Below, piece after piece: positions 8,768-41,127 of a stretch of 41,127 nucleotides of DNA. This DNA is from Candidatus Omnitrophota bacterium (GTDB lineage: Bacteria > Omnitrophota > Gorgyraeia > Zapsychrales > Zapsychraceae): assembly GCA_023247445.1 (NCBI GenBank), contig JAHFGL010000020.1:1-41127 (forward strand). Direction: 5' to 3'. The notes beneath the pieces were generated by a model. It was not told the DNA's origin and made no database searches. It saw nothing but the letters and a program-made list of their open reading frames with translations. Both the position numbers and the translations under genes were made by a program. The first letter of the stretch is position 1. Every line of letters begins with the position of its first letter.

Positions 8768-8801
8768 AAAATCCTATTCCGAAATGACGGAATAGGATTT
8801 T
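8768..8801 (-). terminator. Strong rho-independent terminator after the 29-codon gene
   Basis: A perfect 13-bp stem (AAAATCCTATTCC / GGAATAGGATTTT) with an 8-base loop is followed on the minus strand by a T-rich run (TTGTTTT). It lies 30 bases after the stop of the small gene at 8831 and 15 bases before the -35 element of the slyD promoter, so it insulates the two units. The A-rich left flank makes it a good minus-strand terminator; it could also work weakly on the plus strand. Confidence 0.85.
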
Positions 8802-8830
8802 AGGGTAGATGATTGAAGCTTTATTAAATA

Positions 8831-8920
8831 TTAAAGATACACATCAATTTCATCCCAGCCAAAGCGCTCGCGCTCTTTGTTTGTGCTGGAAATCGGTTTG
8901 TCTTCTTCCCATTCATCCAT
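8831..8920 (-). CDS. 29-residue orphan peptide with its own promoter and terminator
   Basis: This is a 30-codon frame (ATG at 8920, TAA at 8831-8833). The peptide begins MDEWEEDKPISS and ends FGWDEIDVYL. It is acidic and has no signal peptide or cysteine. Several features show it is a real gene: a perfect AGGAGG (8929-8934) eight bases before the ATG, a near-consensus promoter (8987-9016) and a strong terminator (8768-8801), which make a complete single-gene unit. The family is not recognised. The C-terminal Glu24-x3-Tyr28 spacing matches the crosslinked Glu/Tyr pair of PqqA, the PQQ precursor, but no pqq genes are visible, so this may be chance. It could also be a small regulatory or accessory protein. 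Confidence 0.7.
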   Translation of the reverse strand: MDEWEEDKPISSTNKERERFGWDEIDVYL

Positions 8921-8942
8921 AGTAGTTACCTCCTAACTGAAT

Positions 8943-8961
8943 TTGGTTCCTTTCGAACCAA
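8943..8961 (-). promoter_or_regulatory. Hairpin in the 5' leader of the 29-codon gene
   Basis: TTGGTTC and GAACCAA form a 7-bp stem with a 5-base loop, eight bases upstream of the AGGAGG. It lies near the predicted 5' end of the transcript and could stabilise the mRNA or bind a regulator. Confidence 0.45.
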
Positions 8962-8986
8962 TAATATGCTCTCTTTGAACATCCCA

Positions 8987-9016
8987 AGTATAGACTAAAC
9001 CCTAAAATATTGTCAA
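8987..9016 (-). promoter_or_regulatory. Near-consensus sigma-70 promoter of the 29-codon gene
   Basis: On the minus strand TTGACA (9011-9016), an 18-base spacer and TATACT (8987-8992). It is one of the best promoters in the window, implying strong expression of the small gene. Confidence 0.75.
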
Positions 9017-10033: not shown

Positions 10034-10330
10034 TTAATGCCTTTTGTAACCACAACACTGGTCTCCTGGCCACCATTTATGGAGAATTTGGCGAATGGAA
10101 ACACATTCAAAGACCTTACCACTTACGGTTTTATGGAAACCAAAACGATTTTCGTAAATACTACAGATATATTTACCCTTCGAAGCTTCAACTAAGTGTT
10201 CACAAGGATCCCCCTCTGCCACACCACAGCAAGCTCCACAGCGGGTGCATTTATTTTCCCAGGCATCAAGCTGTTTTTGTTGCCAATTTTGATAACTCAG
10301 GTCATCTGAAATAATTTTTGATGATTCCAT
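10034..10330 (-). CDS. YkgJ-type cysteine-cluster protein
   Basis: This 98-residue protein has the cysteine pattern of the YkgJ/UPF0153 family: CTRCGACCGVAEGDPCEHL near residue 32, then CSIYENR and FECVSIRQIL, with a C-terminal CCGY. These small proteins bind zinc or an iron-sulfur cluster, and their role is unknown. The final codons (CATTAA) overlap the ribosome-binding region of the rRNA methyltransferase gene, so the pair is tightly coupled. It lies 21 bases behind the secreted-protein gene. Confidence 0.82.
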   Translation of the reverse strand: MESSKIISDDLSYQNWQQKQLDAWENKCTRCGACCGVAEGDPCEHLVEASKGKYICSIYENRFGFHKTVSGKVFECVSIRQILHKWWPGDQCCGYKRH

Positions 10331-10351
10331 AGCAATAAATGCGCACTTGGA

Positions 10352-10855
10352 TTATTTACGACTTCGAATACTGTCTTGGATGCTTGTCAGATTGCGACCA
10401 GCATTTGGACTCGCTTCAGCCGTTATATTATTCGGAGTCGCATTTTGGTTAAGCGAAGAACGCGCCGCTTCGCTATTAGAAAGGACTTCTTGATTCGGAG
10501 AATTTCTAGTCGCAGCTTGATTTGATTCATCGCTAGATGCCTTTGGTGATATATCTCGCTCAGTAGGAGGTTCAATATTATTAAAATAAGTAACTTGCAT
10601 CTCTTCCAATCGAATGGCAAGACCCTTGAGCCGATACGCACGATAAATCTTAGGCATCTTTGTTTTAAGATATTCCACATCCTCTTTATTTTCACTTAAT
10701 TTTTTCCACGCCAAGGTAATAATTTTTTGATCCTTACTGTTTAAGGCGTTCATATAATTTTGAATAGTTTTTGGAGTTGAAACCGCATTTTGTGCATAAC
10801 TAAACGTTGTTAACCAAAAACCCAATGCCATCACAATAAAAAATTGTATTTTCAT
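10352..10855 (-). CDS. Secreted hypothetical protein with low-complexity tail
   Basis: The protein has 167 residues from the ATG at 10855, which has GAGGGG six bases upstream; the longer frame to 10879 adds eight residues before the signal peptide and is unlikely. The signal peptide is MKIQFFIVMALGFWLTTFSYAQN. A helical region follows (25-90, ALNSKDQKIITLAWKKLSENKEDVEYLKTKMP), then an Asn/Ser/Ala/Pro-rich disordered tail to the end. No family is recognised. It sits between an L,D-transpeptidase and a cysteine-cluster gene on the same strand, which hints at an envelope location. Confidence 0.65.
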   Translation of the reverse strand: MKIQFFIVMALGFWLTTFSYAQNAVSTPKTIQNYMNALNSKDQKIITLAWKKLSENKEDVEYLKTKMPKIYRAYRLKGLAIRLEEMQVTYFNNIEPPTERDISPKASSDESNQAATRNSPNQEVLSNSEAARSSLNQNATPNNITAEASPNAGRNLTSIQDSIRSRK

Positions 10856-10892
10856 TTTCCCCCCTCTATGAATGTCCAATACTGTACCAAGC

Positions 10893-24271: not shown

Positions 24272-24598
24272 TTACGCTACTTCAAGATGACTACCGTGTC
24301 CGACACTACGAGGAAAAGAAATCTTTACATTATGTCCTAGGGATTCAGCGATGCGGATTAATGTATCGAGGGTTAGATTTTTTCCTTCGCCCGTCTCAAT
24401 TTGAGAAACAAATTGTTGAGAGACTCCTAAGCGAGCGGCTAGTTCTTTTTGATTGAGATGTTTTTCTTGGCGCATCTCGGCAATTTTCTGAGCCAAAGCA
24501 ACTTTTGCTCGCTCAACTTCATAAAGTTTTCGAAATTCTTTATCTTTAAGCTTTTCTTTTAAATATCCATCGATATTCTCTAATCTTACTTTTGACAT
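24272..24598 (-). CDS. XRE-family antitoxin (HigA-type)
   Basis: This 108-residue protein has a Cro/C1-type helix-turn-helix in its C-terminal half: LNQKELAARLGVSQQFVSQIETGEGKNLTLDTLIRIAESLGHNVKISF. The N-terminal part (YLKEKLKDKEFRKLYEVERAKVALAQKI) is the usual helical region seen in HigA antitoxins. It would neutralise the toxin and repress the operon by binding the palindrome in its promoter. It starts 12 bases after the toxin stop, in the toxin-first order typical of higBA. Confidence 0.9.
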   Translation of the reverse strand: MSKVRLENIDGYLKEKLKDKEFRKLYEVERAKVALAQKIAEMRQEKHLNQKELAARLGVSQQFVSQIETGEGKNLTLDTLIRIAESLGHNVKISFPRSVGHGSHLEVA

Positions 24599-24610
24599 AT
24601 GAGATTCTCC

Positions 24611-24964
24611 TTATAAATCCATTTTTTCAATATTTCCTGCATTTTCTGTTTGTTTCTTCCTTTTGATACAAATATTCATGTCTTCTGAAGGGATTTTATC
24701 GGTCTTTTTTCTTATCGCATGAAGTAAAACCGCATTTTCTCGCAAATAGAAGAAATAAAAAACTCGATTGTCACGAGGACGTAATTCATAAATCCCTTCG
24801 CCTAAATAATCAGCCATAGGCCGACGCAAGTTATGACCTTGCTTTTTAAGCTCATCAAAATAGGCTGTGATTTTAGCCTGTTCTTTTAAGGGTAACTTAT
24901 CAATGAACTCTTTAACCGGATTACTTCCACGCTCATCAATAAAAAATGAAATTGTCTTTAGCAT
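24611..24964 (-). CDS. RelE/HigB-type toxin (Gp49-like)
   Basis: The protein has 117 residues with the phage-derived Gp49-like/HigB pattern: FFIDERGSNPVKEFIDKLP, AKITAYFDELKKQG, LGEGIYELRPRDNRVFYFFYLRENAVLLHAIRKKTDKIP. The ELRPR...R...FY and KKT residues are those that bind and cut mRNA on the ribosome in the RelE fold. It would inhibit translation by cleaving mRNA when free of its antitoxin. The frame begins with a TTG at 24979, but AAGGA sits 4 bases before the ATG at 24964, which is preferred. The stretch after KKTDKIP is longer than usual and lysine-rich. Confidence 0.9.
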   Translation of the reverse strand: MLKTISFFIDERGSNPVKEFIDKLPLKEQAKITAYFDELKKQGHNLRRPMADYLGEGIYELRPRDNRVFYFFYLRENAVLLHAIRKKTDKIPSEDMNICIKRKKQTENAGNIEKMDL

Positions 24965-24983
24965 ACGATCCTTACGCAATTAA

Positions 24984-25462: not shown

Positions 25463-25957
25463 TTATCCGACTTTAGATAATTCTGGCTCTACTGATTTAC
25501 TTGGTAAATACTGAGCGAAAAATTTGTCTAAAGCAATAAACTGAAAATGATAATCTATCAATTTCATTGATTGAAGCATTAAGCTTTCTGTTTTTAAGAG
25601 CTCCTTTTGTATAACCTCGTTATTACAGATATAAATAACATTCTTATTGATGACATCCTCGCGCTTGGCATAGCTTTCAAAAAGTTCCATATATCGAGCC
25701 CGGTTCTTTAAACTCCGTTCATATTCCAGAAAGAACTTTTGTCTTGTCCCATCATTACGTTCACGCCAGAAAATTGCATCCGGTATTTTATTAAACGTAA
25801 ATCCATTGCGCCTTTCGAGAGGGGAATAACGAATATAATTCTCAGACCACCACTCCGCTATTTTGATCTGATTGGACTTTTCTAAAGCAATTCGGATTTT
25901 ATTCATCCCTAACGCATGAGGCACCATATGCAGTGGAAAGAAATTTACGAACACCAT
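25463..25957 (-). CDS. Truncated replication-relaxation-family protein
   Basis: The recognisable part (from HALGMNKIRIALEKS, about residue 15) matches the C-terminal two thirds of replication-relaxation (Replic_Relax) proteins. Matching segments are NKIPDAIFWR, KFFLEYERSLKNRARYMELFESYAKRE and VIYICNNEVIQKELL; the hallmark is the Glu-rich LEYERS helix with PDAIF before it. Full-length proteins carry an N-terminal DNA-binding winged-helix region that is missing here. The sequence before HALGMNK is not family-like and lies at the junction with the recombinase fragment. Such proteins take part in plasmid or integrative-element replication and mobilisation. Expression and function of the stump are doubtful. 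Confidence 0.65.
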   Translation of the reverse strand: MVFVNFFPLHMVPHALGMNKIRIALEKSNQIKIAEWWSENYIRYSPLERRNGFTFNKIPDAIFWRERNDGTRQKFFLEYERSLKNRARYMELFESYAKREDVINKNVIYICNNEVIQKELLKTESLMLQSMKLIDYHFQFIALDKFFAQYLPSKSVEPELSKVG

Positions 25958-26867
25958 GATTTTAAAAAAACTCAAAAGCCGCGTTTATCTAGGTGAAGTT
26001 GAGCTAAAAGGAGAATGTTTTAAAGGCCAACATGAGCCGATCGTTAGTAAAGACCTTTGGGAACGAGTTAATAATTTACTTAGAAAACAAGCTCCAACGC
26101 GAAGAAATCCTAAACAGCCTAAACAACGTATTTTTCTTCTACAAAGCTTACTACAATGCGGTTGGTGTAACTCATTTATGTCGACTAAGTATTCGACCGG
26201 TGGTAATGGCAGACGCCATTATTACTATCAGTGTACGAAAAATGCTCATGGAGGCAATGATGCTTGTAAGATGAAATACGTGCCAGCAGATAAACTAGAA
26301 AAGATAGTTTTAAATAAAATCCGTTTATTATCAACTGATAAAGAATTTCTAAATCAAGTCATTCTAACGGCTAATGAATCGAGCAGTGGGAAACTTTCGG
26401 GGTTAGTAGATCAAAAGAAAGATCAGGAAAATAAACTGCTCTCAATCAAAGAGCAAATTGGAAATATTGTTAATGCGATTGCTGGGAATCAAATCAAGAA
26501 CCCAAAATCTATTTCCGAGAAGTTGGCTGAGCTAGAAGAGCAAAGAACTCAATTTGAGAAAACAATTAATGATTTAGGCTTTCAAATTGATGAAGAAAAA
26601 CGGAAGATTTTTAGTGCGGAAATTATGCACAAATCTTTAACCAAATTCAGCCAAGTTTATGACAAATCAGATTTAATTCCCGAGAAGGTTAAAGATCTTT
26701 TGACTAACTTTGTGCAATTCGTTACATTTTCACCCCAAGAAATACAAATAGCCCTTTTCAATCGACCGACTGAAAAAGGGCTACTTGTTAACCACTCAGA
26801 CATTGGTGCGCCTGAGTGTATCGAATGGCTCCCCCGCGAGGACTCGAACCTCGGACCCAGTGGTTAA
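25956..26867 (+). CDS. N-terminally truncated large serine recombinase
   Basis: About 300 residues of the C-terminal part of a large serine recombinase are present. They include the end of the recombinase domain (SRVYLGEVELKGECFKGQHEPIVSKDLWERV), the zinc ribbon (C68, C71, C93, C104 in LLQCGWCNSF to GGNDACKMKY), and the coiled-coil/C-terminal region. The N-terminal resolvase domain with the catalytic serine is missing, so it cannot recombine by itself. The frame ends inside tRNA-Asn, giving the tail WLPREDSNLGP that is a translated tRNA rather than real protein. This position is typical for an integrase whose attachment site is the tRNA. It is probably a pseudogene left by a deletion or inversion. 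Confidence 0.8.
   Translation: MILKKLKSRVYLGEVELKGECFKGQHEPIVSKDLWERVNNLLRKQAPTRRNPKQPKQRIFLLQSLLQCGWCNSFMSTKYSTGGNGRRHYYYQCTKNAHGGNDACKMKYVPADKLEKIVLNKIRLLSTDKEFLNQVILTANESSSGKLSGLVDQKKDQENKLLSIKEQIGNIVNAIAGNQIKNPKSISEKLAELEEQRTQFEKTINDLGFQIDEEKRKIFSAEIMHKSLTKFSQVYDKSDLIPEKVKDLLTNFVQFVTFSPQEIQIALFNRPTEKGLLVNHSDIGAPECIEWLPREDSNLGPSG
26750..26782 (-). terminator. Terminator of tRNA-Asn, inside the recombinase frame
   Basis: Stem AGCCCTTTTTCA / TGAAAAGGGCT on the minus strand (one bulge), followed by ATTTGTATTTC. It lies about 44 bases downstream of the tRNA 3' end, on the correct strand. It overlaps the recombinase reading frame. Confidence 0.6.
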
Positions 26868-26902
26868 CAGCCACTTGCTCTACCAAGCTGAGCTACAGGG
26901 GA
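26826..26902 (-). tRNA. tRNA-Asn (anticodon GTT)
   Basis: A 77-base cloverleaf on the minus strand. The acceptor stem pairs TCCCCTG with CGGGGGA (one T-G wobble). The anticodon arm is AGTGG-CTGTTAA-CCACT with GTT as anticodon. The T arm is CGAGG-TTCGAGT-CCTCG and CCA is encoded at the 3' end. Downstream (lower coordinates) the tRNA 3' end overlaps the recombinase frame; upstream are structured repeats. Confidence 0.97.
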
Positions 26903-32833: not shown

Positions 32834-34110
32834 TTTAAGAATGGGAATAATGTACTCATTGGGAATTCACCTTGGCGCGGCAGATAATCGAACGCAAAAA
32901 GTATTAACAAATAAAAATTCCATAGGATAAAAACACTCCCTATCATAACGGCCAATCTAAAATTTTGTACGATTTTCTTAAAAAAGTAGGCCAATCCAAA
33001 GGCGAAGATCAAACTCGCTTCACAAAAAGCCCTAGCGCCAAAGGCATGACCAAAGCCCACATCATGCCAAGAAGCATTTATATATAATAAAATTAGAAAG
33101 CTCGATAAGAATAATTTCGCTACAACTTGGCGATCTTTTATAATACTTACAATTAGGCCCGCAAGCGACAAGGCAATTACCGGCGACCAATATAATAAGC
33201 CGTGATTAGAGGAAAACAATATCTTGGTAAGTTCAGGACGCCACCACACGAATCCCTCACTCCCGTAAGAGTAGACGAAATAATTGCCAAAAATAATTTT
33301 CCAGCTTAATACTTGGAGAAACAGAATGCCCAAGGTTAGGAACACTCCCAAAAAAATCACTGGCCTAACCTTTGTATTACTTTTGATAATTTTTTGTAAA
33401 ACGTAAATTGGATAAATAAGAAAAATAATATTAGAAAATCTCATGACGATTAATAATCCACTTAGTAGTCCTCCCCACAAAAAATATTTCCATTTTCCTG
33501 ATCTTTCTAAGCGCATAGTAACGTAGTAAAGCGCGCTAACGCAAAAAAATCCCCCCGCATGCGGCATCATGGTATCAATGGTTGCATAAAATATTAGATT
33601 GCTGCCTAACCAAATAGTTACAATCGCAAGAAGTGCCCGTTCCTTCTCAAAATAAAAGCTTAGAAAGCGATAACTAAAAATAAAACCTAAAAGGGCGTAG
33701 ATGACTTGGCCAAACGGAACTAATAAATTATAAAAATAAGAATATCCATCCAGGGAAAAATTCCATAGATGCATTTTAAGTCCAATCCACGTCAAAGAAT
33801 GCGCCAAAATAAAAAATGGCAGACTTGAAAGAGAATATCCTATTGGATATCGATTGGTCGTGTGGTTGGTTTTGGGAGAAGTCGGTTGATTCGCGACACT
33901 AGCCGGAAACGGGGTCAGCTCAATAAATTCATTTTTGAAATCAAGATCGCTATCAATAACAGCGGAGCGAACATAGGCATAATACATCTGCCCATCCGCG
34001 CCGCGAATATTTATTTTTTGGTGATAAGAAACAAAGAGAAATAAAACGATATTAAAACAACAAAAAGCGACAATGGCTCTTTGAATTCTTTCCTTAATAC
34101 AATAATCCAT
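32830..34110 (-). CDS. GT-C-like multi-spanning membrane protein
   Basis: This 426-residue protein has about 11 membrane segments. After the first helix, the loop contains RGADGQMYYAYVRSAVIDSDLDFKNEF, then NRYPIGYSLSSLPFFIL. The acidic, Tyr-rich loop followed by a PxGxS segment is typical of GT-C-type membrane glycosyltransferases of unknown specificity. The ATG at 34110 overlaps the adhesin gene by 17 bases and has a GGA about 10 bases upstream, so the gene is translationally linked to the giant repeat protein, which it might glycosylate. That link is inference. It overlaps tex at the other end. Confidence 0.7.
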   Translation of the reverse strand: MDYCIKERIQRAIVAFCCFNIVLFLFVSYHQKINIRGADGQMYYAYVRSAVIDSDLDFKNEFIELTPFPASVANQPTSPKTNHTTNRYPIGYSLSSLPFFILAHSLTWIGLKMHLWNFSLDGYSYFYNLLVPFGQVIYALLGFIFSYRFLSFYFEKERALLAIVTIWLGSNLIFYATIDTMMPHAGGFFCVSALYYVTMRLERSGKWKYFLWGGLLSGLLIVMRFSNIIFLIYPIYVLQKIIKSNTKVRPVIFLGVFLTLGILFLQVLSWKIIFGNYFVYSYGSEGFVWWRPELTKILFSSNHGLLYWSPVIALSLAGLIVSIIKDRQVVAKLFLSSFLILLYINASWHDVGFGHAFGARAFCEASLIFAFGLAYFFKKIVQNFRLAVMIGSVFILWNFYLLILFAFDYLPRQGEFPMSTLFPFLK

Positions 34111-37100
34111 TCTTAATTATTCCACCGGGCAATCCTCCCATGTACATCGGTGATAGCTGTGGCACGAGTGGTAAGTTATATAATCCTCGACTATCAAGCT
34201 GCTTTAAGGTATTACGAAAATTCTTTTGTCCAGCGCTATTAAGAAAACGCTTATTGACCACGACAAATCCTGGGATGTTATTATCAAAATGATACTTCCC
34301 TGAACCTTTCACTGAGATTGACACATTATCCTGCATTTTTGTTACGGATAATGTCGCCATTCCAGAAACAGAAAAAGTAACCGGATTATCTAAAGTCCCA
34401 ATATATCCATTTACAGTTATCGTTGGATTGACTCCGGTAATTGAACCGCCTGAGGTGGAGGTAATATTGCCGCTAACGGTAATTGTTGAGGAGGTGATAT
34501 CTAAAACCGCGCTAAGAGTTAATTGAGTAAGTGCTGCCGTCGTTGTTAACTTAGGCTGCCTGGCGGTCGATGGAATAATAACAGTGTCAACGGCAGACGG
34601 CACTTCGAAGGTATCCCAGTTTCCAGCAGTATCCCAATCATCGGAAACAGCGCCCGTCCAGGTAATTGTTTGAGGATCATCACTGCCAAACGTCCAGTTG
34701 ACATTATTGCCACCGCTGGTTGATGTAATAGTCAAAACCGTTTTATCTGAGGTCGAATAGCTGACACTGACACTGGTGACCGTCGCTCCAGCGGGCGGCG
34801 AAATATACCATGTCGTTGCCGCATTTTGGGGAGCTAAGGTAATTTTCGTTGCCCCGCCGGTTAAGGTTAATGTCGTTGTTATTGTATGCGGGGCCCCTGC
34901 TGAGGCGGCTGCAAATTTAAGAGTACTGCCGTCGGTAATATCCGTGAGTGTTGCCGTCTGTAAGCGATCGGCAAAGGTGACGCCGCCCGCCGAGGCGTTG
35001 GTGATTGTGATCGCGTTAAAAATATTTCCGCTGGAGGTAATTGTCTGCGCAGCCGAACCATTTAAAGCTAGCGTCGATGTACCTACGGTCAATGTCCCGC
35101 CGGTTAAATTAATATCTGCCGGTACCGTCATCGCCGCTGACCCGGCATTAAATGTCCCACTTGAAACGCTTAAGCCGCCGGTCAATGTGTGTGCACCGCT
35201 CGACGCTAAATAAATTCCCCCGCTGACTGTCGTTAATCCAGTGATTGTGACCGTCTGGCCATTGGCATCAAATGTTCCAGCAGAAACGGTGAACGCTCCC
35301 GCTAAACTCAAAGCATTCGTCGTGCGCTTTAAAGTTCCACTACCCACTTTGGTGATCGTCGTGTCATTGCTGATCGCGCCGCTAAAATTGATATCGCCAG
35401 CACCGGAAAATGTTAACGCAAACCCCGCGTTATTGATCGCACCGCTTAAGGTGAGCGTTCCAGCATCGGAGGCAATCCGTCCCGCGGAACCTAAAGTAAT
35501 TGCTCCAGCCACGGTATTATTCCCGCTGATGTTACGTAAGGCCCCGTCGGTCGAAACACCCGTGCCATTTAAGGTAAAACTAATTGTGCTCGGAACAGTG
35601 ATCCCTCCCTGCAATTGCAAGGCCGCACCGGAGGTAACGGTGACCGTTACCGTTCCCGCGCCGAGTGCTGAATTGTTTTGGATATTTAACACACCCGCGC
35701 TAATCGTCGTCGCGCCGGTATAAGTGTTCGCGCCCGTTAACGTGAGCGTTCCAGCGCCCGCTTTCGTTAAGGTAAACGCCCCACCAATGACACCACCCAC
35801 GGTCAAAGTACTCGCACTGACTGTCACTTGACGATTGGCGCTTAATGTCACCGCTCCTGTTCCTAAATTCAAGGCATTGGAACCTGTAAATGTAAAATTA
35901 CCATTCCATGCTTGAGGATAATTTACTGTCGTGATCGAACCACCGCTCGTATTATCAATTGTCCCACCGGAAATTGTAAATGTGCCAGCGACTGTTCCGA
36001 GCGCTGACGCATTATTAATGTTTAGTGTTCCTGCGCTTAAACTAACGCCGCCAGTGAAAGTGTTGGTTCCAGAAAGTGTCAACGCGCCAACGCCCGCTTT
36101 CGTTAAGCTAAACGCGCCACCAATCACACCACCGACGGTCAATGTACTTCCACCCACGGTCACCTGACGATTCGCACTTAAGGTCACGGCTCCTGTTCCA
36201 AGATTCAACGCGTTACTTCCTGTAAATGTGAAATCTCCGTTCCATGCTTGCGGATTGTTGTTGGTTAAAGTAATTGATCCACCGCTGGTGTTGTCAATGG
36301 TTGTTCCACCGGCAATCGTAAATGTTCCTGCCGTCGTGCCTAGCGCGGCCGCGTTATTGATATTTAATGTTCCTGCACTCAGTGTCACGCCACCGGTGTG
36401 CGTATTAACACCGCTTAAAGTTAAAGTCCCCGTACTCGTTTTCGTTAGCAATCCCGCCCCAGCGGTGATGCCGCCATAAACTAATGTCGTCCCTGCAGAA
36501 ACATCGAGTGTTCCACCACCGGCATTGATTGTCATCCCGCGATTAGAATTTAAAGTAAAGGATGCCGTTGTAGCCAGCGTCCCGCCACCGAAAGTTATGG
36601 ATGTGGCGGTCGCTCCACCCGGTGCTGTTCCTAATCCGGAATCAGCAGCAATACTTAAAGTTCCCGCGTTGATCGTCGTGATTCCTGAATATGTATTCAC
36701 TCCACTTAATGTGAGCGTTCCATTACCCGCTTTCGTTAACGCCTGCGCGCCACTAATGATCCCGCCAACGGTTAATGTACTTGTACTGATTGTCAGCGTC
36801 GGTGAGGCTCCAAGAGTAACCGCACCTGTTCCCAAATTCAACGCGTTACTTCCTGTAAACGTAAAACTACCATTCCACGTCTGCGGATAATTCGACGTCG
36901 TAATTGATCCGCCACTGGTATTATCAATGGTTGTACCGTTGGCAATGGTGAATGTTCCGGCCGTCGTACCAAGTGCTGCAGCCGCATTGATGTTGAGTGT
37001 TCCGGCATTATGAGTTACTCCGCCGGTAAATGTATTTGTTCCGGATAATGTTAACGCGCCGGTTCCAGCCTTCGTTAAACTTTGCGCGCCGCTGATAATG

Positions 37101-40100
37101 CCCCCAACAGTCAAGGTACTACCACTGATCGTCAGCGTCGGACTCGCGCCAAGACTTACAGCACCACTTCCTAAATTGAGCGCATTATTTCCGGTGAAAG
37201 TAAAACTTCCATTCCACGTTTGCGGATAATTTACCGTTGTGATTGAGCCGCCGCTCGTGTTATCGATCGTTGTTCCAGCAGCAATGGTGAATGTTCCAGC
37301 GATTGTTCCTAGCGCTGAAGCAGCATTGATGTTGAGTGTCCCGGCATTTAAATTAACTCCACCAGTAAACGTGTTAGTTCCAGAAAGGGTCAACGCACCC
37401 ACGCCCGCTTTCGTCAAACTAAACGCCCCGCCGCCGATCGCACCACCAACGGTAAGCGTATTTCCCCCCACGGTGACTTGTCGATTCGCGCTTAAGGTAA
37501 CCGCCCCTGATCCTAAATTCAAATCGTTACTTCCGGTAAACGTAAAATCGCCATTCCAAGCCTGAACATTATTATTCGATAGTGTGACCGAACCGCCGCT
37601 GTTGTTATCAATGGTTGTGCCTGCGGCTATCGTTAATGTTCCGGTCCCGACGGCGGTGGCATGATTAATATTTAATGTGCCAGCGCTCAATGTCGTTCCA
37701 CTTGAAAAAGTATTCGCGCCCGAAAGCGTGAGCGTCCCGGCGCCTGCTTTTGTCAAACTTTGTGCGCCGCTAATAATGCCACCGAGGGTCAAGGTGCTTG
37801 CGCTAATGGTAAGTGTCGGGGAGGCGCCCAACGAAATCGCGCCGTTTCCAAAGTTTAAGGCATTGCTTCCCGTAAAGGTGAAGCTGCCATTCCATGTGCC
37901 CGCATTATTATTAGAGAAGGTGATCGAGCCGCCGCTCGTGTTATCGAATGTTGTTCCATTAGCGATCGTGAAGGTTCCAGTTCCAAGAGCCGTCGCGTGA
38001 TTAATATTTAAAGTTCCCGCACTAAGCGTTGTTCCGCTGGAAAAAGTGTTCGCACCACTTAAGGTCAATGTCCCTGAACCAGCCTTGGTTAAACTTTGCG
38101 CGCCGCTGATCACGCCACCCATGGTCAACGTGCTCGCACTAATCGTAAGTGTCGGGGATGCTCCAAGCGAAATCGCACCGCTGCCAAAATTTAAGGCATT
38201 GCTTCCGGTAAACGTAAAACTGCCGTTCCATGTGCCAGCATTATTATTAGAAAAAGTAATCGATCCGCCGCTTGTGTTATTAATCGTAGTCCCGTTGGCA
38301 ATCGTGAAGGTTCCGGTTCCAAGCGCGGTTGCGTGATTAATGTTTAGAGTGCCGGCGCTTAACGTTGTCCCGCCGCTGTGCGTATTCGCCCCGCTCAAGG
38401 TAAGTGTCCCTGTGCTTGTTTTCGTAAGCGTTCCTGTACCAGCCGCAATGCCACCATAGACTAATGTCGTGCTGGCCGCGACATCGAGGGTGCCACCACC
38501 AGCGTTGATCGTCATGCCGCGATTAGAATTGAGCGTAAATGATGCGCTCGTCGCCAATGTCCCACCGCCAAAAGTAATTTGTGTTGCCGTCGCGCCACCC
38601 GGTGCTGTTCCTAATCCTGAATCCGCGGCAATACTGATTGTCCCCGCATTGATCGTTGTTATTCCCGAGTAAGTATTGACGCCACTTAACGTGAGCGTCC
38701 CCGCGCTCGTTTTCGTCAAAGCTCCAGTGCCTGCAATAATCCCGCCATAGGTTAATGTTGTGCTTGAGGCCACATCAATCGTCCCACCACCCCCGTTTAA
38801 AGTGATCCCTCGATTAGAATTTAGCGTAAACGACGCCGTTGTGCCCAACGTTCCACCGCCAAAAGTGATTTGTGTGGCGACCGTTCCTCCCGGAGCTGTT
38901 CCTAAACCGGAATCCGCGGCGACACTCACGGTTCCGGCATTGATCGTCATTGTACCCGTGTATGTGTTGACACCACTTAGGGTCAATGTTCCGGCTCCCG
39001 CCTTCGTCAAATTACGTGGTCCTGAAAAAATACCACCCACCGTAAAATTACTTCCATTAACCGTGATCGTACGATCAGCGTTGGCGGTCACAGTTCCTGT
39101 CCCTAAATTTAAATCCCCCGTGCCTGTAAAAGTAAAATTGCTGTTCAAAGCTAATACATTATTATTGGATAAAGTTATTGAACTACCGCTATTATTATTG
39201 ATCGTTCCACCATTGATCGTAAATGTTCCCGTACCAACAGCCGCGGCGTTATTAATATTAAGTGTTCCAGCGTTAAGTGTCATTCCCCCAGAAAAAGTAC
39301 TCGCGCCAGAAAGTGTTAATGTTCCCGCCCCCGCCTTCGTTATTCTCAATGTAGAGCCGGAAATAGCTCCGCCGACTGTCAAATTCCCATTAGTGGTTGT
39401 TATCGTGACATGATTAGAAGGCGTCACTGCCCCCGTCCCCATATTTAAGTCGCTGGTTCCTGTAAATGTAAAATCTTTTGACCAAGCTTGAGTATTATTA
39501 GTCGTTAGTGTAATAGCAGCGCCGCTTGTATTATTAATAGTTCCCCCATTAATCGTAAATGATCCTGTGCCAAGCGCGGTCGCATTATTTATATTTAGAG
39601 TCCCATCGTGTAGCGCTGAAGGGCCAGTATTAGTATTTGCTGCAGATAAAGTTAATGCGCCTGGCCCAGCTTTAGCAAAATAATTACCAATTAAACCACT
39701 GATCGTAAGTGTCCCAGATCCAAATTGATGAACAATGAATTCTGCATTACTCGCGCCTACTTGAGCATTCTGGATTGTAAAATTGTTTGATCCTGTCATT
39801 AAAATTGCGGCGTAACCGAAACTAAGGACATTACTGTTTGAGACTAAATCCAGAAAACCAGAACCACCCGAAGTATCGATGGATAAAGTATTCGTCGCAT
39901 GATTGCCATTGGTCATCGTCAAATTTCCCGATGTGGAATAATTAGTCGTAGAACTGTTGTCTGCCGCTGCCAACACCGTAGCCCCGGTGTAACGCACGAC
40001 GTTTCCTCCGCTTGTGGTTAAGAATCCGATATTCCCCGTAGAATCTTTAACAGTCGCGTAACCTAAAACACTGTTTGATAACGTTGGACTTGATGTTAGG

Positions 40101-41127
40101 GCTCCACTAGGAGCCAGGGATAAATCGACGTGTAAAACATTTCGTACTGAGCTGCGTGACCAAGTGTTTCCTAAGGTAAGTGTTGTTCCAGTCCCGCCGT
40201 TGTCATTAATAATAATTGTATTTTGACCGCCTGTACCGATAGCCGGGTTTCCAAGGGTCTGACTGGAACCGCCGGTACTTTTACCTTTCACACTCAACGT
40301 GCCCCCAATTAATGTTGGAACCGTCGTTGCATCGAGAACTCCTGTTGTATTTGTTGATAAATCCAATAAAAGTGTTCCATTGCTAATCGAGATGCCACCG
40401 GTAAATGTATTTAGTCCAGATAAAGTCAGAGTTCCATTGCCAGCCTTCGTTAAACTACGCGCCCCGCCGCTTTCGCTAATGACACCACCCAGGGTCAGAT
40501 TTGATCCGTTAACCGTTATCGTTCGACTGGCTGAGAGAGCCGCATTACCTGTTCCTAGATTAAGGTCATTCGTTCCTGTAAATGTAAAATTTCCACTCCA
40601 AGTCATAGGATTGTTATTCGATAACGTTATCGCCCCGCCACTCGTGTTATCAATTATCGTCCCAGAACCAATCGTAAATGTTCCTGCCCCATTACCCAAG
40701 GCTGTCGCATGATTGATATTGAGAGTCCCCGCGCTCAGTGTCATACCACCGGTAAATGTGTTCGCGCCGCTTAAAGTTAAAGTGCCGTTAGCTCCTGCTT
40801 TGGTCAACAGACGTGCCCCACCGCTTTCACCGATCGCACCGCCAATAGTTAAATTGGAACCATTACCTGTTACAGTCACGTTAGTGCTCATGGTCACCGC
40901 GCCTGTTCCAAGATTTAAATCATTGGTGCCGGTAAACGTAAAACTAGCCCCCCAGCTTTGCACATTGTTATTGGATGAAGTAACACTGGCGCCGCTCGTG
41001 TTATCGATTGTACCGCCGGAGATAGTCAATGTTCCTGTGCCAAGCGCTGTCGCGTGATTGATGTGTAAAGTACCGGCACTTAATGTTATTCCATTACTAA
41101 ATGTATTTGCTCCAGAAAGCGCCAATG
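34094..41127 (-). CDS. Giant autotransporter-associated beta-strand repeat protein, 5' end outside the window
   Basis: Over 2340 residues are visible and the frame is open at the right edge, so the N-terminus and any signal peptide lie outside. About 16 copies of a module of 80-130 residues follow the pattern GTLTLSGANTFSGGTTLSAGTLNINHA, the autotransporter-associated beta-strand repeat (PF12951/TIGR02601). This builds a long right-handed beta-helix. Three modules carry SGLGTAPGG. After the last module come other beta-helix segments, a TWTGAVSDDWDTAGNWD motif (seen at the C-terminal side of many surface proteins), and a short tail ending MYMGGLPGGIIKNGLLY. No C-terminal autotransporter barrel is seen. 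The protein is presumably a secreted surface adhesin or fibre. Some repeats are almost identical in protein sequence. Confidence 0.92.
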   Translation of the reverse strand, partial: LALSGANTFSNGITLSAGTLHINHATALGTGTLTISGGTIDNTSGASVTSSNNNVQSWGASFTFTGTNDLNLGTGAVTMSTNVTVTGNGSNLTIGGAIGESGGARLLTKAGANGTLTLSGANTFTGGMTLSAGTLNINHATALGNGAGTFTIGSGTIIDNTSGGAITLSNNNPMTWSGNFTFTGTNDLNLGTGNAALSASRTITVNGSNLTLGGVISESGGARSLTKAGNGTLTLSGLNTFTGGISISNGTLLLDLSTNTTGVLDATTVPTLIGGTLSVKGKSTGGSSQTLGNPAIGTGGQNTIIINDNGGTGTTLTLGNTWSRSSVRNVLHVDLSLAPSGALTSSPTLSNSVLGYATVKDSTGNIGFLTTSGGNVVRYTGATVLAAADNSSTTNYSTSGNLTMTNGNHATNTLSIDTSGGSGFLDLVSNSNVLSFGYAAILMTGSNNFTIQNAQVGASNAEFIVHQFGSGTLTISGLIGNYFAKAGPGALTLSAANTNTGPSALHDGTLNINNATALGTGSFTINGGTINNTSGAAITLTTNNTQAWSKDFTFTGTSDLNMGTGAVTPSNHVTITTTNGNLTVGGAISGSTLRITKAGAGTLTLSGASTFSGGMTLNAGTLNINNAAAVGTGTFTINGGTINNNSGSSITLSNNNVLALNSNFTFTGTGDLNLGTGTVTANADRTITVNGSNFTVGGIFSGPRNLTKAGAGTLTLSGVNTYTGTMTINAGTVSVAADSGLGTAPGGTVATQITFGGGTLGTTASFTLNSNRGITLNGGGGTIDVASSTTLTYGGIIAGTGALTKTSAGTLTLSGVNTYSGITTINAGTISIAADSGLGTAPGGATATQITFGGGTLATSASFTLNSNRGMTINAGGGTLDVAASTTLVYGGIAAGTGTLTKTSTGTLTLSGANTHSGGTTLSAGTLNINHATALGTGTFTIANGTTINNTSGGSITFSNNNAGTWNGSFTFTGSNALNFGSGAISLGASPTLTISASTLTMGGVISGAQSLTKAGSGTLTLSGANTFSSGTTLSAGTLNINHATALGTGTFTIANGTTFDNTSGGSITFSNNNAGTWNGSFTFTGSNALNFGNGAISLGASPTLTISASTLTLGGIISGAQSLTKAGAGTLTLSGANTFSSGTTLSAGTLNINHATAVGTGTLTIAAGTTIDNNSGGSVTLSNNNVQAWNGDFTFTGSNDLNLGSGAVTLSANRQVTVGGNTLTVGGAIGGGAFSLTKAGVGALTLSGTNTFTGGVNLNAGTLNINAASALGTIAGTFTIAAGTTIDNTSGGSITTVNYPQTWNGSFTFTGNNALNLGSGAVSLGASPTLTISGSTLTVGGIISGAQSLTKAGTGALTLSGTNTFTGGVTHNAGTLNINAAAALGTTAGTFTIANGTTIDNTSGGSITTSNYPQTWNGSFTFTGSNALNLGTGAVTLGASPTLTISTSTLTVGGIISGAQALTKAGNGTLTLSGVNTYSGITTINAGTLSIAADSGLGTAPGGATATSITFGGGTLATTASFTLNSNRGMTINAGGGTLDVSAGTTLVYGGITAGAGLLTKTSTGTLTLSGVNTHTGGVTLSAGTLNINNAAALGTTAGTFTIAGGTTIDNTSGGSITLTNNNPQAWNGDFTFTGSNALNLGTGAVTLSANRQVTVGGSTLTVGGVIGGAFSLTKAGVGALTLSGTNTFTGGVSLSAGTLNINNASALGTVAGTFTISGGTIDNTSGGSITTVNYPQAWNGNFTFTGSNALNLGTGAVTLSANRQVTVSASTLTVGGVIGGAFTLTKAGAGTLTLTGANTYTGATTISAGVLNIQNNSALGAGTVTVTVTSGAALQLQGGITVPSTISFTLNGTGVSTDGALRNISGNNTVAGAITLGSAGRIASDAGTLTLSGAINNAGFALTFSGAGDINFSGAISNDTTITKVGSGTLKRTTNALSLAGAFTVSAGTFDANGQTVTITGLTTVSGGIYLASSGAHTLTGGLSVSSGTFNAGSAAMTVPADINLTGGTLTVGTSTLALNGSAAQTITSSGNIFNAITITNASAGGVTFADRLQTATLTDITDGSTLKFAAASAGAPHTITTTLTLTGGATKITLAPQNAATTWYISPPAGATVTSVSVSYSTSDKTVLTITSTSGGNNVNWTFGSDDPQTITWTGAVSDDWDTAGNWDTFEVPSAVDTVIIPSTARQPKLTTTAALTQLTLSAVLDITSSTITVSGNITSTSGGSITGVNPTITVNGYIGTLDNPVTFSVSGMATLSVTKMQDNVSISVKGSGKYHFDNNIPGFVVVNKRFLNSAGQKNFRNTLKQLDSRGLYNLPLVPQLSPMYMGGLPGGIIKNGLLY
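35670..41127 (-). repeat. Tandem beta-helix modules within the adhesin gene
   Basis: About 16 degenerate tandem modules, in DNA roughly 240-360 bases each. Two neighbouring modules (about 37710-38046 and 38047-38398) differ at only 8 or so residues of about 113 but show many third-base changes. The three modules with SGLGTAPGG form a second subtype. The long plus-strand open frames over this region are mirror frames of the repeat and not genes. Confidence 0.8.

Follow-up and report, generated by a model that had tools for sequence, protein, structure and literature searches.

Small genes escape standard annotation. One described example is VcdP of Vibrio cholerae, a protein of 29 residues encoded by the dual-function RNA VcdRP, which binds citrate synthase and activates it (PMC8672173). 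Another short peptide, PqqA, is the substrate for a Glu-Tyr crosslink that PqqE makes and for which PqqE requires PqqD (PMC8326336). In the GMSC catalogue, a domain hit was recorded for only 6.1% of the families of small proteins (PMC11364881). The Omnitrophota, the source of the gene described here, have so far not been isolated (PMC10066038).

The gene lies in a window of 41,127 nucleotides (the whole stretch of DNA that was analysed) and encodes a peptide equal in length to VcdP, cytosolic like it, and read from a short transcript of its own that holds a single small frame. The RNA that carries VcdP, in contrast, acts by base-pairing, and VcdP is an activator of citrate synthase, whereas modulation of an enzyme is for our peptide a proposal made here; the likeness is one of analogy, and no sequence relation is claimed. 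With PqqA it shares its shortness and, in the window copy, a Glu-x3-Tyr spacing. It resembles GMSC-type families in having fewer than 100 codons, in being conserved across genera and in carrying no domain annotation: no member tested had a profile match in Pfam, NCBIfam or PHROGs, and no PDB chain is a sequence relative of the peptide family. Judged against Pfam, NCBIfam, PHROGs, PDB and Rfam, this is a new small-protein family, of which the window peptide is the founding member and which is so far limited to two families of one Omnitrophota order.

A complete transcription unit for a 29-residue peptide

The unit runs from promoter to terminator over 250 bases of the minus strand (9016-8768), with a leader of 60 bases. 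The sequence-only reading had described a promoter, a leader hairpin, AGGAGG, a 30-codon frame and a terminator at this place, and all five were confirmed there:

9016-9011, minus strand: -35 hexamer TTGACA, read from the sequence; relatives have TTGGCA or TTGCNN at the equivalent site
8992-8987, minus strand: -10 hexamer TATACT after an 18-base spacer; TATATT or TATACT is equivalently placed in most relatives
8961-8943, minus strand: 5' leader stem-loop TTGGTTC-GAAAG-GAACCAA, 7 pairs; leader fold z = -4.65
8934-8929, minus strand: Shine-Dalgarno sequence AGGAGG, 8 bases 5' of the ATG (8920), read from the sequence
8920-8831, minus strand: coding sequence of MDEWEEDKPISSTNKERERFGWDEIDVYL, 29 residues plus TAA, 30 codons; relatives and purifying selection
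8863-8834, minus strand: C-terminal motif F-x-W-D-E-x-x-V-x-L at the extreme end of the protein; common to both subfamilies
8801-8768, minus strand: intrinsic terminator, 14-pair stem and T run; terminator-like hairpins in relatives

The window promoter matches the consensus at 11 of 12 positions, and no site in the 2.4 kb scanned scores higher. Sites resembling promoters are not enriched in this AT-rich stretch (7 seen versus 8.0 expected from shuffles), and the score of the window promoter was reached by none of 580 shuffled upstream stretches. Together, the promoter and the Shine-Dalgarno sequence suggest that the peptide gene is strongly expressed, its small frame lying inside a short, independent transcript predicted from the sequence.

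The same cassette recurs in related genomes. A terminator-like hairpin (-12 kcal/mol or lower, within 110 bases of the stop) follows 27 of the 29 copies of the gene, versus 7% of shuffles; a promoter score met by just 3.8% of shuffles is reached in 17 of the 29; and a promoter block, TTGGCA-N17/18-TATATT, can be aligned across class B and the class A copies of the second family (both described below). Between stop and terminator, the copies vary in sequence and length. Nearly every copy thus has an independent promoter and terminator, which bears out the earlier description of a self-contained gene. A complete promoter-to-terminator cassette spotted by eye can point to a genuine small gene missed by profile libraries.

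Distribution, subfamilies and selection

When the 29 residues were run by tblastn on 55 related genomes, matches over the full length appeared in other genera with E values down to 2e-8, and whole-length matches among the copies reach an E value of about 1e-18. A profile search of 81 genomes of the order (E < 1e-8) places the gene in 28 of them: 7 of the 32 genomes in f1, the family to which the window belongs, 21 of the 32 in a second family (f7), and none of the 17 belonging to five other families (f2-f6). Together, the tblastn and profile searches bring the peptide family to 29 copies, spread over 28 Omnitrophota genomes. When 384 genomes from across the phylum were searched, no convincing member emerged beyond f1 and f7; the weak profile matches outside these two families (L037, L039, L045 and others) were inspected by eye and dismissed as chance, being start-less or within other frames. 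A scan of 84,980 species returned 15 contigs; the titles of 14 name Omnitrophota, Omnitrophica or Omnitrophus, and the remaining title says just "bacterium." Absences are soft because the metagenome-assembled genomes are incomplete, although among the f7 genomes at least 90% complete, 9 of 11 have the gene.

The copies fall into two subfamilies. Class A (20 copies, including that of the window) has the consensus M-x-E-W-K-E-D-K-P-I-x6-R-E-x-F-x-W-D-x3-[VI]-x-[LIF]-stop, and class B (9 copies) has the consensus MxGPHNxESNQKxQQE[DE]EATFAWDEANVLI. Class B was first detected via the C-terminal half alone and later with full-length profiles. The two classes sit in different genera, no genus holding both, and one genome (G401) holds two class B copies. 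A phage origin was considered and rejected, since class A patterns found no relative in IMG/VR and there was no PHROG match.

Substitutions among the copies are overwhelmingly synonymous. By the Nei-Gojobori method, pN/pS is 0.054 for class A in f7 (55 pairs; pN 0.03, pS 0.64), 0.131 for class B and 0.256 for class A in f1; with pS at 0.64-0.82 the synonymous sites are near saturation, and the differences pile up at third codon positions. These counts are decisive for selection at the protein level, and we take the peptide to be a translated, selected protein. Failure of the frame to be conserved in related genomes had been set beforehand as the result that would tell against the gene; the frame is conserved in 28 genomes at a pN/pS of 0.05-0.26, so the window unit is more than a product of chance, and we are nearly certain that it is a real, conserved, stand-alone small-protein gene. 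Selection of such strength means that a protein of 29 residues must matter to Omnitrophota cells. It is nonetheless not essential to the group, since it was undetected in 25 of the 32 f1 genomes and throughout f2-f6.

The same figures bear on whether the peptide is a small structural part of a constitutive machine, or stabilises one, such as the ribosome, RNA polymerase or a respiratory or redox complex. Nearly all copies have the kind of cassette expected for high expression, which would suit such a part, as would the very slow evolution of the f7 protein. However, the distribution is patchy, with the gene undetected in all 17 f2-f6 genomes as well as most of f1, the peptide is acidic where ribosomal small proteins are not, and no PDB chain is related to it; we consider this reading rather unlikely.

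A C-terminal motif shared by both subfamilies

Classes A and B have in common solely the C-terminal stretch F-x-W-D-E/N-x-x-[VI]-x-[LI], their N-terminal halves being unrelated. The motif stands at a fixed distance from the stop in both classes, with one extra residue in a single genus (g14), and because this distance is kept despite the unrelated N-terminal halves, the motif points to a docking end. The comparison of the two subfamilies thus already indicates which residues are likely to carry function. Inspection of the sequences by eye revealed no transmembrane stretch or signal peptide in any copy.

As to origin, a neighbouring gene family (cluster C7) adjoins the class A copies in f7 and also class B copies, and a second (cluster C10), together with an RlmI-like gene, connects the window locus with other genera. 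These shared neighbours favour a single ancestral gene over repeated capture, so that descent of all copies from one ancestor is our preferred explanation, short of proof.

The C-terminal end had also given rise to a tentative proposal, called speculation at the time, that the peptide is a PqqA-like RiPP precursor modified by a radical SAM enzyme. What prompted it is present in the window, namely Glu24-x3-Tyr28 in the peptide and a radical SAM gene 8 kb off. The residue pair, however, is not conserved: apart from the window copy, L062 is the one other class A copy that has it (2 of 20), and none of the 9 class B copies does, the commonest class A form having Asn24 and Leu28, with position 28 being Leu or Ile. 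No copy has a radical SAM gene, PqqE-type or other, or a PqqD gene beside it, PqqD (PF05402) was not found in the window's genome, which is 95.6% complete, and the radical SAM gene is of the B12-binding type (PF02310 and PF04055). Since motif, maturase and PqqD all fail, we reject the RiPP reading and regard a precursor of this kind as scarcely conceivable.

Neighbouring genes

The genes next to the peptide gene vary between copies, and many copies face a convergent gene downstream. Named from their sequences, the neighbours include what we take to be an AddA-type helicase, a YkgJ-like protein, a PilT-like ATPase, queH and a SurA-like foldase; the convergent downstream genes include queH, sulfite reductase and surA-like genes. 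This variation decides the case of a cis-acting leader peptide, in which translation of the short frame would control the terminator and hence the downstream gene. The anatomy is that of an attenuator, a short frame followed by a terminator, and in the window an FKBP-type slyD begins about 85 bases past the terminator on the same strand. Against this, the downstream genes differ among relatives and are often convergent, the amino acids are conserved throughout without a run of regulatory codons, and the distance from stop to terminator is variable. Attenuation was therefore rejected as highly improbable, and because the neighbours differ and are often convergent, the peptide gene is not an operon member either.

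A partner was sought through gene neighbours and through presence and absence, and was not found by these means. Several class B copies adjoin a gene for a ferredoxin-dependent sulfite/nitrite reductase; this link was dropped, since across the 81 genomes presence of the reductase does not track the peptide: several genomes (among them G042, G045, G379 and G017) have the peptide with no NIR_SIR match, and many peptide-less genomes have NIR_SIR. Genome context thus names no partner.

At 10034-10879 on the minus strand, the window also encodes two further proteins: one is rich in cysteine (98 residues, CTRCGACCGV...) and has no match in Pfam; the other, of cluster C10, has 175 residues and looks secreted. 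The cysteine-rich and C10 proteins accompany the peptide gene in other genera as well (L061; L055 and L056).

Structure of the leader

Taken as a set, 27 leaders fold more stably than dinucleotide shuffles (combined z of -5.5), with several individual leaders folding no better than their shuffles. Most leaders form a stem-loop at this place, and in class A the stem sequence changes from genome to genome. Class B leaders are 83% identical in pairwise comparison versus 56% at third positions of codons sharing their first two bases, which argues that the class B leader is itself constrained. Its helix UCCCA/UGGGA encloses GGGG/CCCC, and three pairs have changed on both sides, in seven related sequences, which are few. 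When a crossing helix AUCU/AGAU and a helix AGGA/UCCU around the ribosome site are included, 97.5% of cells are paired, versus 34-61% when slid; these two helices hardly vary, and the data are consistent with them without proving them. From its sequence, the class B leader may possibly form an H-type pseudoknot in which AUCU/AGAU crosses UCCCA/UGGGA.

The element is present in the class B leaders L038, L071, L072, L073, L075, L076, L078 and L085 and absent from class A, the window copy included. A covariance model built from it and run over the 81 genomes matched the class B peptide genes plus one stray, in G031 (E 2.7e-5, the sole other match below 0.001), which we judge to be chance, as it lies inside a cation-efflux transporter-like frame. 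With matches confined to the peptide genes, the class B leader is specific to this gene, and the idea of a general riboswitch was rejected; the element has no match in Rfam.

A rival reading is a dual-function RNA, in which the transcript of about 210 bases would be both a base-pairing small RNA and the mRNA of the peptide, as in SgrS/SgrT or VcdR/VcdP. Its size, its own promoter, the leader fold and the strong terminator resemble a small-RNA gene, the identity of the class B leaders exceeds that of degenerate third positions, and dual-function RNAs encoding 29-residue proteins are known (PMC8672173). We nevertheless hold this to be unlikely: besides the lack of an Rfam match, the window's branch keeps the presence of a hairpin and not the sequence of the leader, the stop-to-terminator region is variable, and coding constraint alone explains most of the conservation.

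Proposed function

We propose that the gene encodes a well-expressed cytosolic microprotein that docks by its C-terminal motif onto a partner protein and modulates it; taken as a whole, we believe this statement has about an equal chance of being right or wrong. The mRNA would be compact and heavily translated, and its 5' stem-loop may protect it or tune that translation. The peptide alone is probably unfolded; the AlphaFold model of a 34-residue relative is nearly structureless and uninformative (mean pLDDT 67.6, pTM 0.15), and its low confidence agrees with disorder of the lone peptide. The C-terminal F-x-W-D-x3-[VI]-x-[LIF], ending at the stop, would then dock on a cellular protein, and the docked peptide might modulate this partner, by analogy with the 29-residue VcdP and citrate synthase. 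Other roles, for instance as a protease adaptor or as a structural subunit within a complex, would fit the evidence equally well.

Extending the microprotein proposal, the two subfamilies could form an autoregulated system, in which both dock the same partner via the C-terminal tail while the class B leader fold switches translation through the peptide, the partner or a metabolite. We offer this extension tentatively, as an idea with a small chance of being correct. The peptide itself is a cheap and concrete handle, which can be synthesised and used as bait.

Other features of the window

On the minus strand at 24272-24979 lies a HigB/HigA-like toxin-antitoxin pair, a Gp49-type toxin (PF05973) followed by an XRE-type HTH antitoxin (PF01381). 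A large serine recombinase is represented by its C-terminal part (PF07508, PF13408) on the plus strand, running up to a tRNA gene at 26829-26902 on the minus strand (Rfam RF00005), the whole spanning 25956-26902; the recombinase part is likely the remnant of an element integrated at the tRNA. Finally, an open frame of at least 2343 residues extends to the window edge (34094-41125, minus strand), and consists of beta-helix repeats (TLSGANTFSGG...) that are nearly identical and resemble those of autotransporters, which fits the reports of giant adhesin-like genes from Omnitrophota (PMC10066038). Another giant Omnitrophota gene, an open frame of 30644 residues, surrounds a chance match in an f1 genome (G023:C46, locus L014).
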